This document shows, in pieces, positions 2,510 to 43,973 of a stretch of 64,000 nt of DNA. A program made the position numbers and the translations under genes. The notes under the pieces are model-generated. The model worked only from the letters and a program-made list of their open reading frames with translations. It was not told where the DNA came from and did not search any database. Source of the stretch: Gemmataceae bacterium (GTDB lineage: Bacteria > Planctomycetota > Planctomycetia > Gemmatales > Gemmataceae); NCBI GenBank assembly GCA_019636445.1, contig JAHBXO010000028.1, forward strand, positions 1 to 64,000. The letters run 5' to 3'. Each line of letters opens with the position of its first letter. Within the stretch, counting starts at the first letter, position 1.

Positions 2510-2525
2510 GTGGTCGCGACCGCCC

Positions 2526-2563
2526 GCGCTCGGCTCCGAAGACTCCGCCTCGCCGCTTAACGG
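2526..2563 (+). repeat. Interspersed repeat A, copy 1
   Basis: This 38-base element (core CGGCTCCGAAGACTCCGCCT, then CGCCGCTTAACGG) lies between the convergent HAD and guaA genes. Near-identical copies are at 28707-28744 and 52830-52866. Here there is no opposing arm, so it is a single half-element. Confidence 0.85.
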
Positions 2564-2574
2564 GATTGTTCTGA

Positions 2575-2606
2575 ATTCCGCACTCCGCACTCCGCACTCC
2601 GCACTT
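2575..2606 (+). repeat. Interspersed repeat C, copy 1 (CCGCACT tandem units)
   Basis: ATTCCG followed by four CACTCCG-like heptamer units, just beyond the 3' end of guaA. Related arrays occur at 17231-17325, 61345-61380 and 62446-62536. There is no spacer structure, so it is not a CRISPR. Confidence 0.85.
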
Positions 2607-2611
2607 CTTCC

Positions 2612-4153
2612 TCACTCCCATTCGATCGTCGCGGGCGGCTTGCTGCTGATGTCGTAGACCACGCGGTTCACACCTTTGACGCGGTTGATGATCGCCGTCG
2701 ACACGCGAGCGAGTAGGTCGTGCGGCAGGTGACTCCAATCGGCGGTCATGAAGTCGTCGGTCTGTACGCAGCGGATCGCGATGGTGTTTTCGTAGGTGCG
2801 GCCATCGCCCATGACGCCCACGCTGCGCACCGGAAGCAACACGGCGAAGGCTTGTGAGGTCTTGCGGTACCAGCCGGCCTTGTGAAGTTCCTCCAGGAAA
2901 ATCGTGTCGGCCATGCGGAGCGCCACGAGCTTCTCGGCCGTGATTTCGCCAAGACAGCGCACCGCGAGGCCGGGGCCGGGGAACGGGTGCCGCCAGACAA
3001 CCTCTTCCGGCAGGCCGAGTTCGAGGCCGAGCCGGCGCACTTCATCCTTGAAGAGATCACGTAGCGGTTCAACGAGTTCGAAGCCGAGTTCCGCCGGCAA
3101 CCCGCCGACATTGTGATGGAGCTTGATGGTTGCAGCGGGTCCGTCCGCGGAACCTCCGGACTCGATCACGTCCGGGTAAAGCGTACCCTGCGCCAGAAAG
3201 TGGGCGTCCGGAATCGCCTTGGCCTCGTTCTTGAAAATCTCGATGAAGACACGGCCGATGATCTTGCGCTTCTCCTGCGGGTCGGTGACTCCCTGCAGGG
3301 CGGCGAGGAAGTGCTCGGCCGCGTGGACGACAGTGAGGTCGGCCTTGAACCAGTCGCGGAAGGTGTGGCGGACGAGGTCGGTCTCGCCTTCGCGCATCAT
3401 GCCGTTGTCGACGTAGATGCACGCGACCTGTGGACCGATCGCCTTGACGAGCAGCGCGGCGCACACGGCCGAGTCGACGCCGCCGGACAGCCCGCAGATG
3501 ATGCGCTTGTCGCCGACCTGCGCCCGGATCTTCGCGACGGTCTCGTCGATGAACGTCTGCATGCGCCAGAGACCCTGGCAGCCGCAGACGTCGCGGAGGA
3601 AATTCGCGAGGATCTGTCCGCCGTGGGGCGTGTGGCTCACTTCCGGATGGAACTGGATGCCGTAGACGGGGCGGCTTTTGTGCTTCACCGCCGCGACGGG
3701 GCAGGTGTCGGTGCTGGCGAGCGGTTCAAAGTCGCCGGACATCGCGTGGACCTGATCGCCGTGACTCATCCAGACAGTGGATTCGACCGGATAACCGCGG
3801 AAGAGCTGATTCGCATTGGTGACGTTTAGGGTGGCGCGGCCATACTCGCGGGAGTGCGCGGGGGCGACGTGCCCGCCAAGGAGATGGCAGGCGAGTTGCA
3901 TGCCGTAGCAGATGCCGAGCACCGGGATGCCGAGGTCGAAGATTTTGGGGTCGCACTTCGGGGCACCGTCTTCGTAGACGCTCGACGGGCCGCCCGAGAG
4001 GATGATCCCCTTGGGGTTCAGTTCCTTCACGCGCTCGGCCGTGATGTCGTGGCGAACGAGTTGGCAGAAGACATGCTGCTCGCGCACGCGCCGCGCGATG
4101 AGTTGCCCGAACTGCGAGCCGAAGTCGAAGACGAGAACGAGTTCGTTGGTCAT
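2612..4153 (-). CDS. guaA: GMP synthase (glutamine-hydrolysing)
   Basis: GuaA aminates XMP to GMP using glutamine and ATP, the last step of guanine nucleotide synthesis. From the ATG at 4153 it is 513 residues. A class I glutamine amidotransferase domain comes first, with nucleophile Cys82 in GICYGMQL and the His169/Glu171 pair in QFHPE. The ATP-pyrophosphatase domain follows with the P-loop SGGVDS at 223-228, and the dimerisation domain ends in KPPATIEWE, the usual GuaA tail. A TTG four codons upstream (4165) keeps the frame open, but the ATG is the more likely start. Its 5' leader contains the hairpin repeat at 4174-4257. Confidence 0.97.
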
Positions 4154-37186: not shown

Positions 37187-37272
37187 GGTCCACCCGATCG
37201 GTTCGATGCTGTCACATTATTCGATGCGCCGGCCCCGGAGCGGTTACAATCGGATTGTCGACGGAGACCGCC

Positions 37273-38523
37273 ATGCCGATGACGATCCATTGCCGTTGCG
37301 GCCGGGAACTGGCAATCGCGCGCGGGCGGATCGATTGCCCGTCCTGCGGCCGGTGCCACGTCGTGCTGGGCGAAGGCCGGGCGCTGCCGCTCGCGCTCGC
37401 CGCGGCGGCGGCGTTCGCGGTGGTCGCGGTCGGGCTGCTCGGCGCGCTGATCGGTTCGACACGTCCGGCTCCGGCCCCGGTCGCGGTATTACCCGGTCCG
37501 GAAATCCCGCCCGCACCGGTAATTGAGCCGGAACTCGTGCCGCCGCCCCCGCCCAAGTTGGTTCCGGCACCGGAGCCGATGCCGGTTCCCGTGCCGCCCC
37601 CGCCCGAACCCCCGCCGTCGCCGATGCCCCGTGCCGGCGCGCTGGAGGCGGCCGTTGAACCGCCGGGCCGGTACAAGGTCGGCGATGTCATCCAACAGAC
37701 GGTCCTCGTGTCGCGGCGATCGAAGTATACTGTTGCGGGCGTCGACCTCGCCTCGTCGAGCGACTACCGGCTGGAATCGTCGATCGTCATCGCGAAGGTT
37801 CACGCCGACGGATCCCTCGCCGCGACGCAGACGATCGCGGCGGCGAAACTGCTGGACGCGGACCGGGATTCCAAAGCCGGTCTGGCCGCGGCGCTCGAGA
37901 AGGCGCAGGGGAGGAAATTCGGGATCGCGATCGCCGCCGACGGGAGCGCGACGGCGATCGAGGGATGGGACGATCCGATCCGCGTCGAACGCAAGGACGA
38001 CGACCCGACGCGGTCGTTCCGCCTCTCGGCGCTGGTGGACGCAGACGGTTGGAAGGAACTGGCGGGCCTGACGTTCTTCCAGCCCGGCGCGCCGTTGAAG
38101 CCGAAGTCGACTTGGGCCAACCCAACTGCTCACGAGTGGGGGCCGCTCGGCCGCTGGAGCGGTCGCACGGTATTCGCCTCGGTGGGGCGGGCGGCGGGCC
38201 GGGGTGCGCTCGAGCGGATCGATTTCCGTCACGACCTTTCGCACGCGCCACCCGCGGCCGGGGCCGATGGTGCCCTGCCGATCCGGATTGCCAAGGCCGA
38301 GTTCCGAACGATCGCCGCCGGTGGAGCGATTCTCTACGACCCGGTCACGGCGAGGACGGTGTCCGCGGACGAATTGTTCCACGTGCGCGGATCGCTCGCC
38401 GTCGCGCTCGACGGGCTGATCGCGCCCGTCACGGTCGAAGAACGGCAATCGTTCCAACTGGTGGTCGGCGAAGGCAAGGAACAGGAACTGTTCGGCCGTC
38501 CGCCGGCACTCCGGAAGGAGTGA
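37273..38523 (+). CDS. Zinc-ribbon, single-pass membrane protein with Pro-rich linker
   Basis: A 416-residue protein of unknown function; the ATG at 37273 with GGAG upstream is chosen over an in-frame TTG at 37255. Cysteines 7, 9, 22, 25 and 28 (CRCG, CPSCGRC) make a zinc ribbon. A membrane helix (about 39-62) follows, then a Pro/Glu/Val linker (about 65-120). The large outer domain (about 125-416) is beta-rich and contains repeated YRLESSIVIAKVHADGS-like strands; I do not recognise it. It lies just upstream of yidC, separated by 97 bases. Confidence 0.7.
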   Translation: MPMTIHCRCGRELAIARGRIDCPSCGRCHVVLGEGRALPLALAAAAAFAVVAVGLLGALIGSTRPAPAPVAVLPGPEIPPAPVIEPELVPPPPPKLVPAPEPMPVPVPPPPEPPPSPMPRAGALEAAVEPPGRYKVGDVIQQTVLVSRRSKYTVAGVDLASSSDYRLESSIVIAKVHADGSLAATQTIAAAKLLDADRDSKAGLAAALEKAQGRKFGIAIAADGSATAIEGWDDPIRVERKDDDPTRSFRLSALVDADGWKELAGLTFFQPGAPLKPKSTWANPTAHEWGPLGRWSGRTVFASVGRAAGRGALERIDFRHDLSHAPPAAGADGALPIRIAKAEFRTIAAGGAILYDPVTARTVSADELFHVRGSLAVALDGLIAPVTVEERQSFQLVVGEGKEQELFGRPPALRKE

Positions 38524-38620
38524 GTTCGGAACCAGTTCCCATTGTTCGAATGGCGTCCAGGCGTTCGCCCGCGCCATAGAATGTCGGCTTGCCGAAAGTT
38601 CGATCCTCCGTGCGGTATCC

Positions 38621-41101
38621 ATGAAAGATAACAGTCTGTCGAACGTTGTCCGCCTCGTGCTTGCGATGGCCGTGGCCTACGTCGCGTGGCTTTACCTGTT
38701 CCCCACGAAGCCGCCGGCGGAAGACCCGGAGCCTGCGGCGAAACTGCCGAATGTCACCCGGGAACAGGCGGCGGCGGTGGGCAGTCCGGTGATTCTTGCC
38801 GGCGAACCGTTTGCGAAACTCGCTCCGGGGCGGCCGCCCAAGCCGATCGTCGCGCCGAAGCCCGCCGCACCGACCGAGCTGCCGACGCTCGTCGCGCTCG
38901 GCGACGATAACTTCGCGATCAAAGCGCTGCTCACCACGCGCGGCGCGGGCGTCCAGCAACTTATTCTCACGAAATTCCACGAAGCCGACCGCGTCGGGCG
39001 ACCCGTCATCGATCCCGAAACCAAGACCAAGCGCCCGCTGCACCTCATCCCGGGCTTCACGCGCGTGCCCTACGTCTTTCTCACGGACGTGAACGATTAC
39101 CCGACTCTCTCGGCGAATCTGACGGCGGCGGGCTACGCGGCCGGGGCGAAGCCGGGCAAGCTCGCGCACGCCGACCGCCTCGCCACGCCATCTTATGTGA
39201 TGCTGCATTATCCCGCGAAGGACGACCCGATCCGCGCGCTCGACAAGGAGGGCAAACCCCTTCCGGAGGACGATAAGTATCCGTTGGCGACGTTGGCGGA
39301 GATGGACTGGAAAATCGTCGCCCTGAAGCAACCGGTGGAAGGTGCGTGGGAAGTCGCTTTCGAAACCGAACTCGCCGCACCCTACCACCTGCGGTTGCGA
39401 AAGACTTACCGATTGGATCGGGCCGATTACGATTTTCAGCTGAAGGTCGAGATCGAACCGCTGCCGGGGCGCATCAAGGGCGCGGGTAAGTTCCGTTATC
39501 AGATCGCCGGCCCGGTCGGGATGCCGATCGAAGGCGAATGGTACACCACGTCGTTCCGCACGGCGTACTTCGGCTGGCTGGACGGCACCGGCACGCCGCG
39601 CCGGGAGATCGACGACGCCGGCAACATCCATTACCGCCATGGCGGCGACGGTGTCGTGAAACCCGGCCGCTTCTCGTACGCCGCGGTCGGCACGCAGTAT
39701 TTCGCCTCCGCGCTGGCCGTGGATGACGAGACCACCGACTCCGACCAACCGTGGGAATACATCCGCCCGACGCGCGTCGTGCCGCCGGCGGATGCCGTTG
39801 CGGAAACCGGCCGCCCTACCCAGCCCTACGATCAGGAACGTTACTTTCTCTTCGATATCAACTACCGTGCCGTCTCGCGCCTATTCGACCCGGCTGCCGG
39901 CGAAACACTCGCACACAACTACGCCGTCTACAACGGACCGATGAAGGTCCGCCTCCTGCGCGAAATGACCGGGGACAAAGCCGTGCCGCCGGAGACGGTC
40001 GACCGTTACCTGACCAAGTACCACCTCGAAACGCTGACCGATTACCACTCGCCGACCTGGTTCGGCCGGCGGCTCGACGGGCTGGGATGGTCCGGCCTCG
40101 TGATCTGGACGACCAATATCATGCACTGGCTGCTCGCCGCCCTGCACGGGTTGCTGGGCAGTTGGGGTGCCGCCATCATCGGCGTCACGGTCTGCGTGCG
40201 GCTTTGCTTGTTCTTCCCCAGTCGCCGGCAGCAGACGATCAACGCGCACATGTCCGCCAAGATCGCCGCCCTGAAACCGCAGATCGACAAGATCAACGAG
40301 AAGTACAAGGACGACTTCCTGGCGCAGACCAAGGCTCGCAGCGAGCTGTTCAAACAAGCCGGCATCCGCCAGTCGGCGCAGCTCGGCGGTTGCTTCCTGC
40401 TGCTTCTGCAGATGCCGTTCCTGATGGGCCTCTACTTCTGCCTGCAAGAGAGCATCTTCTTCCGTCTGGAGCCGTTCCTGTGGTTCCCGAGCCTGGCCGC
40501 GCCGGACATGCTTCAATGGTGGTCGGAAATGGTGCCGGTCATCAGTTCGCCGTCGTCGCGGTTCGGCGTGTTGAGCTTTCTGTATCTCGGCCCGTATTTC
40601 AACATCATGCCGCTGGCGGCGGTGATCCTGATGTACATCACGCAGAAGATGGTGATGCCGCCGCCGACGGACGAGATCCAGGCGCAGCAGCAGGCGATCA
40701 TGAAGTACATGTTCGTCTTCACCGCGCTCTTCTTCTACAAGGTGGCGGCGGGCCTGTGCCTGTACTTCATCGTCGGGAGCATCTGGGCGCTGCTGGAGCG
40801 GCGGCTGGTGCCGAAGCCGGACCTGACGAAAGCCCACGCGGCCGCCCGCGCGGCGCAGAATCCGGTCGATTCGATTGCCAACGCGAAGCCCGGCGCGCCG
40901 CCCGCGCCGTCGGTCGACCCCGACAAGCCTCAGGGCTTCTGGGGCCGCATGAAGACGGCCCTGGAGGAAGCGCAGCGAAAGGCCGAAGCGGACCGGCAGA
41001 TCCGCAACGACCGACCCAACGGCACCCCGCCCGCGGGACCGCCCCGCCCGAGCGCCGCCGACCGCGCCCAAGACCGGAAGAACAAGAAGAAACGCAAGTG
41101 A
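38621..41101 (+). CDS. yidC: Membrane protein insertase YidC
   Basis: YidC inserts and folds inner-membrane proteins, alone or with SecYEG. The protein is 826 residues, much longer than the roughly 550 of E. coli. One N-terminal helix (about 8-24) is followed by a large periplasmic beta domain. The insertase core starts near 495, with the conserved groove Arg in [15 protein letters not shown], the coiled hairpin ([20 protein letters not shown]), and further helices [15 protein letters not shown] and [14 protein letters not shown]. The tail is Pro/Lys/Arg-rich (ending KNKKKRK), fitting ribosome contact. No rnpA or rpmH is nearby. Confidence 0.95.
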
Positions 41102-41699: not shown

Positions 41700-43973
41700 T
41701 CAATTCCGCGACGAATCCTGGAAAATGCTCTCAAAGGTCGGTGCGGCGACCTTGAACGCTGCCAACAACGTCGGATCGAACTGGCCTTCGCTTTCCGCCG
41801 TGATGAGCTTCACTGCGCGGGCGTGCCCGAAGGCGGGTCGATACGGCTTGCGCGTGCGGAGGGCTTCGTAAACCGAAACGATTGCGAGGACCCGCGCGGC
41901 GAGCGGGATTGCCGCCCCCGCCAGCGAGTCCGGATAGCCGGCGCCGTCCCAACGCTCGTGGTGGTGCCGTACGATCTCGGCGGCCAGAACGATATCGGCC
42001 ACGCGGTCCGGCATGGTCCGCGCCAGATCCGCCAGCACTTCGGAGCCGGAGAGCGTGTGCGTTTGCACGAACGAATACTCTTCGGCGTTCAGCTTGGTGG
42101 GCTTCTTGAGAAGGTCGGTCGGCAGGAGGAGCAGGCCGATGTCGTGCGCCGCGCCGGTCGAAGCCAACAATTCCTGATACGTGGGGTCCTTCAGTCGGGA
42201 ATATTCACCCGAGTCTTCGGCCGCGAAGGCGAGGGCCCGAACATACCGCCCCACGCGCTCGTGGTAGCCGTGCGGGAGGTGCCCATGCTCTTCGAGCAAC
42301 CGGCCGATGCCGTAGGATAGCGGCGTGAGCGCGCCGACCTTGGTGCCGTGCGTGGTCGGCGCGGCCGGGGGCGGCGGCGCGGGCGTCCGCGTCATCGCAC
42401 CCATCGTGATGCGGACCGTTTCCTTGACCGGCGGGCTTTGGACGCCGGCCCCCGCGCTTTCGATCAGCGAAAGATAAGACCGGTTCAACATCCCCTTCAA
42501 TCGGGACCGCAACGCCGCCATCGTGAACGGCTTTTCCAGATAGTCGTCCGCCCCGGCGACCAGCCCGCTGAGGGCCTCCACGGGAATGTCCGCCGACATC
42601 AGGAGGACGCGCGGAACCGGGCGCGAATCCGACAGCTTCCGGATTCGGTCGAGAATTTCCGAACCGCTGATGCCCGGGAGATTCACGTCCAGCGTAGCGA
42701 TGTCGAACGTCTGGCGTTCGAGCAGTTCCCACGCCGCGAGGCCGTCCGCGGCTTCCGAGATTTCGCAGCCGGGAAGCGATGATCGGATCAGCTCCCGGAT
42801 GTACGGTTCGTCGTCCACGATGAGCGCCCGGATCGGCCGATCGCCCTCGGCCGCGTCGCAATTCGTCTCGTGCGATCCAAGCCAGTTCGCCAGGCCGGTC
42901 AGCGTGCTCGCCAGAATTCGGGCGGAGGCGAATCGCTTCTCCGGGTCCGGGTTCGTCAGCTTGGCGATCAACTCCGCGAGTTCGACCGGCACCTCCGGGC
43001 GAACGCGCCGGACGTCGGCCGGCGGCGCCTTCATCCGCTGCGACAGATCCGTCAGCATGTTACCGGTTTCCGGGTACGGATCGTGTCCGGTGAGCGCCCA
43101 GTACATGGTGGCACCGAGGCCGAAGAGATCCGCGCGGGCGTCCACGAGGTGGGCGTGCTGGATCTGTTCCGGAGCCATGTAGCCGACCGTGCCGAGGACG
43201 GTGCCCGGTTCGGTCATGCGATGGTGCGGTTGCAGGGCAAGGCCGAAATCCAGCACCTTCGCCTGCATGTCCGGCGTGATGAGGATGTTCGACGGCTTGA
43301 TGTCCCGGTGGACCAGGCCGAGCCGGTGGGCCTCCGCGAGGGCCTCGGCGACCTGCCGGAACAGTTGACAGACCTGCTTGGGGGTATAAGGACCGCGCAG
43401 GCGGATTGCTTCCTTCAGGTCATCCCCGCGAATCAACTCCATCGCGTAATAGTCGCGGACCGGTTGTCCCGGCCGGTTGTGCAGGCCGGCATCCAGGCTC
43501 GAAACGATATTGGGGTGCTGCATCCGCGCCACGGCGCGAGCTTCGGCGTAGAAGCGGTGCACCAGTCGCACGTTCGTGTCGACCGTCCGGCTCATGACCT
43601 TGATCGCCACCTGCCGGCGCAGATACAGGTGCTCCGCCTTGTAGACGGTCCCCATGCCGCCTCGCCCGATCACGTCCAACAACCGGTAATGACCGATGAT
43701 CAAATCCGCCTCGGAGCCGCGTCGGATCGCGTCGACTTGAAACGGCGTCAGCAGCCGTTGATCGGCCAAGCGTGTCAGCAATTCGTCGGAATCGGCGATC
43801 AGAGAAAGCTCCATTCGCGTATTCGCGGGAACTTCCTCCCACTCTTCCGGAAGCAGGATCAATTGATCCATCAACCGGCCGAGCAGTTTATCGGCTCCTC
43901 CGACCCCCACATCCAGCATGGAGGTGGGGCAATCGGACTCCAGTTCGGGTATGTATTGGATTGGCGAGGGCAT
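41700..43973 (-). CDS. Fusion signalling protein: Ser/Thr kinase, REC receiver and HD-GYP domain
   Basis: A 757-residue soluble protein with three signalling modules. A kinase domain (about 96-360) has GRGGMG (103-108), Lys125, HRDIKPSN (222-229) and DFG (242-244), so it should be active. A receiver domain (about 381-500) has acidic pair Asp387/Asp388, phosphoacceptor Asp429 (TLDVNLPG), Ser460 and Lys481. A linker with a Pro-rich run (531-539) leads to an HD-GYP domain (about 550-750) with HERV (571), HDIGL (610-614), His639 and HHERWDGAGYP (671-681). The usual Lys of HDxGK is Leu614. No membrane helix is seen. It may link Ser/Thr and two-component phosphorylation to cyclic-di-GMP turnover. 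Confidence 0.93.
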   Translation of the reverse strand: MPSPIQYIPELESDCPTSMLDVGVGGADKLLGRLMDQLILLPEEWEEVPANTRMELSLIADSDELLTRLADQRLLTPFQVDAIRRGSEADLIIGHYRLLDVIGRGGMGTVYKAEHLYLRRQVAIKVMSRTVDTNVRLVHRFYAEARAVARMQHPNIVSSLDAGLHNRPGQPVRDYYAMELIRGDDLKEAIRLRGPYTPKQVCQLFRQVAEALAEAHRLGLVHRDIKPSNILITPDMQAKVLDFGLALQPHHRMTEPGTVLGTVGYMAPEQIQHAHLVDARADLFGLGATMYWALTGHDPYPETGNMLTDLSQRMKAPPADVRRVRPEVPVELAELIAKLTNPDPEKRFASARILASTLTGLANWLGSHETNCDAAEGDRPIRALIVDDEPYIRELIRSSLPGCEISEAADGLAAWELLERQTFDIATLDVNLPGISGSEILDRIRKLSDSRPVPRVLLMSADIPVEALSGLVAGADDYLEKPFTMAALRSRLKGMLNRSYLSLIESAGAGVQSPPVKETVRITMGAMTRTPAPPPPAAPTTHGTKVGALTPLSYGIGRLLEEHGHLPHGYHERVGRYVRALAFAAEDSGEYSRLKDPTYQELLASTGAAHDIGLLLLPTDLLKKPTKLNAEEYSFVQTHTLSGSEVLADLARTMPDRVADIVLAAEIVRHHHERWDGAGYPDSLAGAAIPLAARVLAIVSVYEALRTRKPYRPAFGHARAVKLITAESEGQFDPTLLAAFKVAAPTFESIFQDSSRN

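Follow-up and report, generated by a model that had tools for sequence, protein, structure and literature searches.

A cytosolic Ser/Thr kinase fused to a receiver and a degenerate HD-GYP domain in Gemmataceae: a possible cyclic-di-GMP input to Ser/Thr phosphorylation

Response regulators in which a receiver (REC) is followed by an HD-GYP domain, of the PA4781, RpfG, and TM0186 type, share this order with the C-terminal half of a putative protein encoded in the 64,000-nt stretch of Gemmataceae DNA analyzed here (contig JAHBXO010000028.1; hereafter “the window”). Its nearest solved structure, by sequence and by fold, is PA4781 (4r8z, 7e-34), a REC-HD-GYP enzyme with limited activity. The window protein differs from these regulators in having an N-terminal Ser/Thr kinase, and in belonging to a lineage that has lost both catalytic residues and the helical linker. 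Its kinase has the fold and catalytic motifs of PknA, PknB, and Stk1, but it lacks their transmembrane helix and PASTA domains, and its regulatory half consists instead of the receiver and HD-GYP. N-terminal region, kinase, and receiver follow one another in the same way in STK-REC proteins (L202, L203) from elsewhere in the Planctomycetia, which are about 51% identical over this part to a member of the lineage called B below; unlike the window protein, they stop after the receiver and its helix, without an HD-GYP domain.

The DvhD protein of Desulfovibrio vulgaris has a catalytically dead HD-GYP domain that binds c-di-GMP and alters its dimer geometry, with E668 contacting the second guanine (PMC13090378; PDB 9RBZ, 9RC0). 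The window protein resembles it in having an HD-GYP fold without hydrolysis residues, a largely conserved pocket, and an acidic residue at the E668 position. The two differ in setting and in what was lost: DvhD sits in the membrane as a receptor carrying dCache and PAS domains, while the output of the window protein would be its kinase; and DvhD has lost the HD (to SQ) and HH (to MN) pairs but kept the lysine, while the window protein keeps HD and HH and has lost the lysine. Among protein kinases, SgmT of Myxococcus xanthus is reported as a c-di-GMP receptor; it is a histidine kinase rather than a Ser/Thr kinase (PMC3509222).

No description of a planctomycete fusion of kinase, receiver, and HD-GYP was found in the literature searched, in line with a first-pass annotation of the sequence that had named it as a candidate for an undescribed system. 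Gemmataceae planctomycetes have about 100 or more Ser/Thr kinases, and a survey of planctomycete Ser/Thr kinases counts 105 accessory domains and 307 architectures, its text naming neither HD-GYP domains nor receivers (PMC11032199). Its supplementary tables may list the fusion, so that any novelty lies in the function and the pattern proposed here rather than in absence from every database.

Architecture of the window protein

The gene (Table 1) translates in one intact frame to 757 aa and a stop codon, in which Pfam finds Pkinase (96-356, 1.1e-46), Response_reg (384-492, 2.9e-22), and HD_5 (588-736, 1.3e-26). Over the entire gene, a single frame shows high third-position GC. That frame is also present in a relative from a second genome of the genus (G053), at 98% amino acid identity and an overall dN/dS of 0.046, so that a join of separate genes is excluded. 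A frame join through sequencing error was rejected on the basis of this relative, and because all 55 family members scanned with Pfam have all three domains. The one-chain fusion proposed in the first-pass annotation thus stands, and the residues cited there (K125, H222-R223-D224, D242-F243-G244, D387, D388, D429, K481, HDIGL, and HHERWDGAGYP) are all in place. Its description of the protein as soluble is consistent with the AlphaFold2 model, which has no transmembrane helix; the most hydrophobic stretch (683-701) lies within one of the core helices of the HD-GYP fold. The domains of this full-length model are confident (mean pLDDT 83.9), but their arrangement relative to each other is unreliable (pTM 0.55).

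Besides the motifs in Table 1, the kinase domain has the GRGGMG (103-108) and full HRDIKPSN (222-229) stretches of Hanks-type kinases; its best structural matches are mycobacterial PknB/PknA (5u94, 1mru, 4x3f), and K125, HRD, N229, and DFG are invariant in the alignment of all 37 lineage A members (see below). Its catalytic motifs are complete, and Ser/Thr phosphotransfer is predicted. The receiver has the acid pair, acceptor Asp, Ser, and Lys of response-regulator receivers. The C-terminal block, which might in principle have proved to be something else, is an HD-GYP domain by its HD_5 match, its HHERWDGAGYP signature, and its fold: modeled alone (pLDDT 93, pTM 0.91), it matches the solved HD-GYP structures 4r8z, 4mcw, and 9rbz.

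Table 1. Features of the window protein and its gene (PmGH numbering for reference residues; A and B, the two lineages of the family).
Feature	Window coordinates	Strand	Remarks
Whole gene: N-terminal helical region, Ser/Thr kinase, receiver, linker, HD-GYP	41700..43973	(-)	Single frame, 757 aa
N-terminal helical region, residues 24-95	43689..43904	(-)	LPEEWxELP and LLTxxQ motifs common to whole family
Hanks-type Ser/Thr kinase domain, residues 96-356	42906..43688	(-)	K125, HRD 222-224, DFG 242-244, APE 267-269; PknB/PknA-like fold
Receiver domain, residues 382-495	42489..42830	(-)	D387/D388, phospho-acceptor D429, S460, K481 all present
Disordered linker, residues 496-552	42318..42488	(-)	Model confidence <50 at 508-546; E518-T-V-R and TRTP motifs
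HD-GYP domain, residues 553-750	41724..42317	(-)	Fold matches PA4781, PmGH, DvhD
Lost catalytic/metal positions D183->G564, E185->L566, H189->Y570	42264..42284	(-)	PmGH numbering
HDIGL, residues 610-614	42132..42146	(-)	H221 and D222 kept; catalytic K225->L614
HHERWDGAGYP, residues 671-681	41931..41963	(-)	H276/H277 and GYP loop; invariant in A, nearly so in B
Lost metal ligand D305->S700	41874..41876	(-)	PmGH numbering
K709..R712	41838..41849	(-)	Equivalents of PmGH guanine-reading R314/K317; basic in 37/37 lineage A
E727	41793..41795	(-)	Equivalent of DvhD E668; acidic in 36/37 lineage A, 2/30 lineage B

Distribution and two lineages

The protein is not unique, but belongs to a widespread order-level family. 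Homologues are found at E<=1e-70 in 71 of the 102 genomes of the window's order, a tally that includes some partial matches; the 55 aligned members with all three Pfam domains come mainly from these genomes. In a survey of 298 genomes from the class, every complete example of the architecture came from this order; two genomes of another family encode STK-REC proteins with a region related to the N-terminal helical region, a kinase, and a receiver, without HD-GYP. Among 343 genomes across the phylum, the window genome alone gave a full-length match, and two others encode REC-HD-GYP proteins without a kinase (3 to 11 candidates were scored per genome in both surveys, so that weak or rearranged cases may be missed). 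A scan of genome contigs gave at least two full-length matches, the two listed being from planctomycete MAGs, while a viral-contig scan and a viral fold library gave only matches to the domains unconnected with each other. An apparent myxococcal fusion (L082, from a Myxococcales MAG) was rejected: the HD-GYP (1-2520) and Ser/Thr kinase (2524-4017) are separate genes, the first directly upstream of the second on the same strand. In a protein from another family of the class (L214:1091-3082), two receiver-like stretches come after the kinase.

About 70 members aligned with solved HD-GYPs fall into two groups, A (37 members, including the window gene) and B, first split by similarity score rather than by the residues discussed below. 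Lineage A is one clade both in a REC-HD-GYP tree (SH-aLRT 100) and in a kinase-only tree (99), though these are quick trees without bootstraps, with near-copies among the members; the kinase-only tree makes the grouping independent of the HD-GYP columns. Lineage B has retained a largely intact, trinuclear-type HD-GYP domain and sometimes seems to have shed its kinase. In at least one member (L158) the kinase is degenerate alongside an intact HDIGK HD-GYP, and stand-alone REC-HD-GYP proteins of the same family (L204-L210, L212) nest inside lineage B, suggesting that the kinase has been lost, or domains reshuffled, more than once; a single clean fusion followed by vertical descent only is too simple.

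Both lines often occur in the same genome. The window genome itself has a lineage B paralogue (L116:6661-9036; G000:C1:154660-157035) with intact E-T-G, HDIGK, and D305. In seven genomes, such B genes are immediately preceded by a conserved gene coding for about 230-300 aa (cluster c151). Another genome (G006) has two lineage A copies in tandem, from different subclades (L137:5317-7614 and L137:7942-10281).

The lineages differ also in the connection between receiver and HD-GYP. The stretch matching residues 500-550 is exactly 36 residues long in every lineage B member, with 3% Pro+Gly, as expected of a signaling helix running from one domain to the other; in lineage A it has 24 to 58 residues and 26% Pro+Gly. 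Lineage A has thus lost, besides catalytic residues, the rigid link through which a receiver would act on the HD-GYP domain. The linker contains 16.5% Ser/Thr in A against 8.6% in B, and an [ED]T[VLMI]R motif, often with RTP next, is found in 9 of the 37 lineage A members against 0.24 expected after shuffling, which is not a clean probability since the members are related. The combination [ED]T[VLMI]R...RTP recurs in several lineage A subclades, and in the window (42318-42488) is a candidate phosphorylation site.

Residues lost and kept in the HD-GYP domain

Residues were tallied with PmGH as reference over 37 lineage A and 30 lineage B members, the A set including near-duplicates. K225, E185, D183, and D305 are gone from every lineage A member, H189 from 29, and H221 from 21, while D222, H250, H276, H277, G284, Y285, P286, and a basic R314/K317 pair are kept in all 37. 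Lineage B keeps H189, H221, and D305 in 30/30, E185 in 24, K225 in 21, and D183 in 7; 16 of the 30 are intact at all checked positions except D183. Lineage A thus has neither the lysine of a catalytic HDxGK nor the trinuclear E/D-T-G (PmGH 185-187). Of the seven or eight metal ligands of a catalytic HD-GYP domain (E185, H189, H221, D222, H250, H276, H277, D305), three are lost and five kept in the window protein.

In PmGH itself, K225A and D183A abolish activity (D183 being the partner of K225), D305A and E185A retain some, and R314/K317 read a guanine, although alanine mutants at these two and at the GYP positions barely reduce hydrolysis (PMC4159591). RpfG also lacks E185 and H189, yet is an accepted phosphodiesterase, so that among the changes seen here it is those at K225, D183, and D305 that carry real weight; D183 is likewise missing in most of lineage B. 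The first-pass annotation had pointed to HDIGL in place of HDxGK and suggested an altered or conditional activity. The substitution is real, and the doubt justified, but it is not the sole change (H189, E185, D183, and D305 are Y570, L566, G564, and S700 in the window protein), and given the PmGH mutants the losses taken together make a stronger case against hydrolysis than HDIGL alone. Judged from these residues, the lineage A domain very probably does not hydrolyze c-di-GMP at enzyme-like rates. With K225, D183, and further metal ligands missing throughout the lineage, a non-hydrolytic module is a better reading than a conditional enzyme, and of the three signaling currencies which that annotation saw meeting in one protein, phosphodiesterase is unlikely to be a working activity.

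Simple decay of the domain was ruled out: mean pairwise HD-GYP identity is 55% within lineage A and 54% within B, and comparison of the window gene with its 98%-identical relative gives dN/dS values of 0.057 (HD-GYP), 0.028 (kinase), and 0.018 (receiver). The domain appears instead to be kept for a purpose other than its original chemistry.

DvhD offers one comparison. Like DvhD, the window domain has lost residues needed for hydrolysis, though different ones, and its model matches DvhD with a TM of 0.73-0.77. In the DvhD pocket set (Y621, L577, R650, Y652, E668, K582), the first five are matched by Y680, L628, K709, Y711, and E727; K582 corresponds to Y633, at a position which is R or Q in most relatives. 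The equivalence of E668 and E727 comes from a gapless count from the shared tyrosine (Y652/Y711), and the E727 position is one of only seven in the HD-GYP domain that are class-switched and lineage-fixed.

Possible roles of the three domains

Loss of the cutting residues together with retention of the messenger-binding pocket suggests that the HD-GYP domain probably senses the messenger on behalf of the kinase. On this reading, the protein would be a Hanks-type Ser/Thr kinase of the cytosol, with a C-terminal half derived from a response regulator of the REC-HD-GYP type. The lineage A HD-GYP domain would have ceased to be a phosphodiesterase and taken on a regulatory role, most likely as a sensor of c-di-GMP or a related dinucleotide; the receiver, with D429 phosphorylated by a histidine kinase, would provide another input; and the kinase would be the output, its activity changed by c-di-GMP binding or receiver phosphorylation. 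This sensor-kinase model, with receiver and dead HD-GYP as inputs, seems to us evenly balanced between right and wrong. The binding of c-di-GMP by lineage A HD-GYP domains, considered by itself from the conserved residues and the DvhD analogy, could go either way: the residues kept contribute as well to the fold and to part of the metal site, so that their retention is not proof of nucleotide binding, nor is conservation of GYP and R314/K317 a strict marker for it, given the near-normal hydrolysis of the PmGH mutants. The messenger is presumably available in these bacteria: GGDEF proteins are found in 94 of 95 family genomes, and the window genome encodes two proteins with GGEEF motifs (FHA-GGDEF and REC-GGDEF) and has three PilZ matches. 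The FHA-GGDEF protein (L176:1101-2057, on G000:C19), of a kind conserved in 73 of the 95 genomes, may itself link Ser/Thr phosphorylation to c-di-GMP synthesis.

If the sensor-kinase model holds, a single chain would translate c-di-GMP levels, along with the signaling state of its two-component receiver, directly into Ser/Thr phosphorylation. No such direct meeting point of c-di-GMP with Asp and Ser/Thr phosphorylation was found in the literature searched. One argument against sensing is that the dead HD-GYP domain could be a structural or docking module, for dimerization or for contact with a GGDEF or other partner, that binds no c-di-GMP and still leaves the kinase as output. HD-GYP domains do act through protein contacts as well, as RpfG does with GGDEF domains (PMC4159591), and strong purifying selection on the fold and a flexible linker would suit a tethered docking module. 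Nevertheless, the positions held invariant include those lining the pocket (Y285, R314, K317, H276/277), and an acid is fixed in lineage A at the position of DvhD E668, and docking alone is, in our view, a rather unlikely explanation, if the strongest of the competing ones.

It seems improbable that the domain has remained a phosphodiesterase, its center altered and perhaps mono- or binuclear, or its substrate a different one such as pGpG, so that kinase and hydrolase are joined in one chain. The window protein does have H221, D222, H250, H276, and H277, D305A and E185A leave PmGH with some activity, RpfG is active without two ligands, and the closest solved structure, PA4781, is an enzyme, if a limited one; but the losses include K225 and D183, both indispensable in PmGH, besides H189 and D305, over half of lineage A has lost H221 as well, and lineage B, including the window genome's own copy, keeps H189, H221, and D305 throughout.

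The first-pass annotation had suggested that the kinase might phosphorylate its own receiver or HD-GYP module. A self-contained switch, in which the kinase acts mainly on Ser/Thr in its own chain (receiver, HD-GYP, or linker, with E518-T519-V-R and T-R-T-P there), would draw on the disordered, Ser/Thr-richer lineage A linker with its excess of [ED]T[VLMI]R, and on the widespread FHA-GGDEF proteins as possible phosphothreonine binders. Most lineage A members lack the linker motif, though, and its sites are candidates only; moreover, Ser/Thr kinases are not known to phosphorylate receiver aspartates. We would give such a switch only a slim chance.

For the sensor-kinase model, the flexible lineage A linker makes tight mechanical coupling less obvious. 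The simplest reading of the retention patterns is that the indispensable activity would be the phosphodiesterase in lineage B and the kinase in lineage A. A duplicated protein may accordingly have split its work, with B a kinase/phosphodiesterase whose kinase is dispensable, and A a c-di-GMP sensor gating a soluble Ser/Thr kinase, with a histidine-kinase-fed receiver as second input; this is offered tentatively, as somewhat less probable than the sensor-kinase model itself. The family would then be a natural experiment, in which the same three-domain ancestor persists as an intact enzyme in lineage B and as a conserved pseudo-enzyme in lineage A, and since both are often encoded in the same genome the change from a degradative to a sensing domain could be tested by comparing paralogues.

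The phosphodonor of the lineage A receiver is likely to be a histidine kinase. As the first-pass annotation had said, no histidine kinase gene adjoins the fusion in the window, and none of the 25 HisKA matches in the genome lies on its contig (C21). In six sister genomes (G015, G017, G022, G023, G024, G027), the lineage A gene adjoins a divergently oriented gene for a PAS hybrid histidine kinase (assigned in G022 by clustering and in G027 by inspecting the frame), which is followed by a REC-HDOD gene; this hybrid kinase is an ordinary candidate phosphodonor, and by comparison the window receiver is a lineage-specific orphan. REC-HDOD is absent from all four genomes of the window's genus, and no such partner was found elsewhere in the window genome at E<=1e-20. 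Receiver input is not universal in lineage A, since some members (L105, L107, L111, L112, L137, L138) have lost receiver residues.

The gene lies between a DJ-1/PfpI gene and the genes for an RND pump and its fusion protein, an arrangement kept only in the 98%-identical relative; no operon partner was found in the window. Nearby, the window also encodes a YidC/60KD_IMP insertase of 826 aa (38621-41101), beside a 422-aa frame without a Pfam match (37255-38523), the pair spanning 37255-41101.
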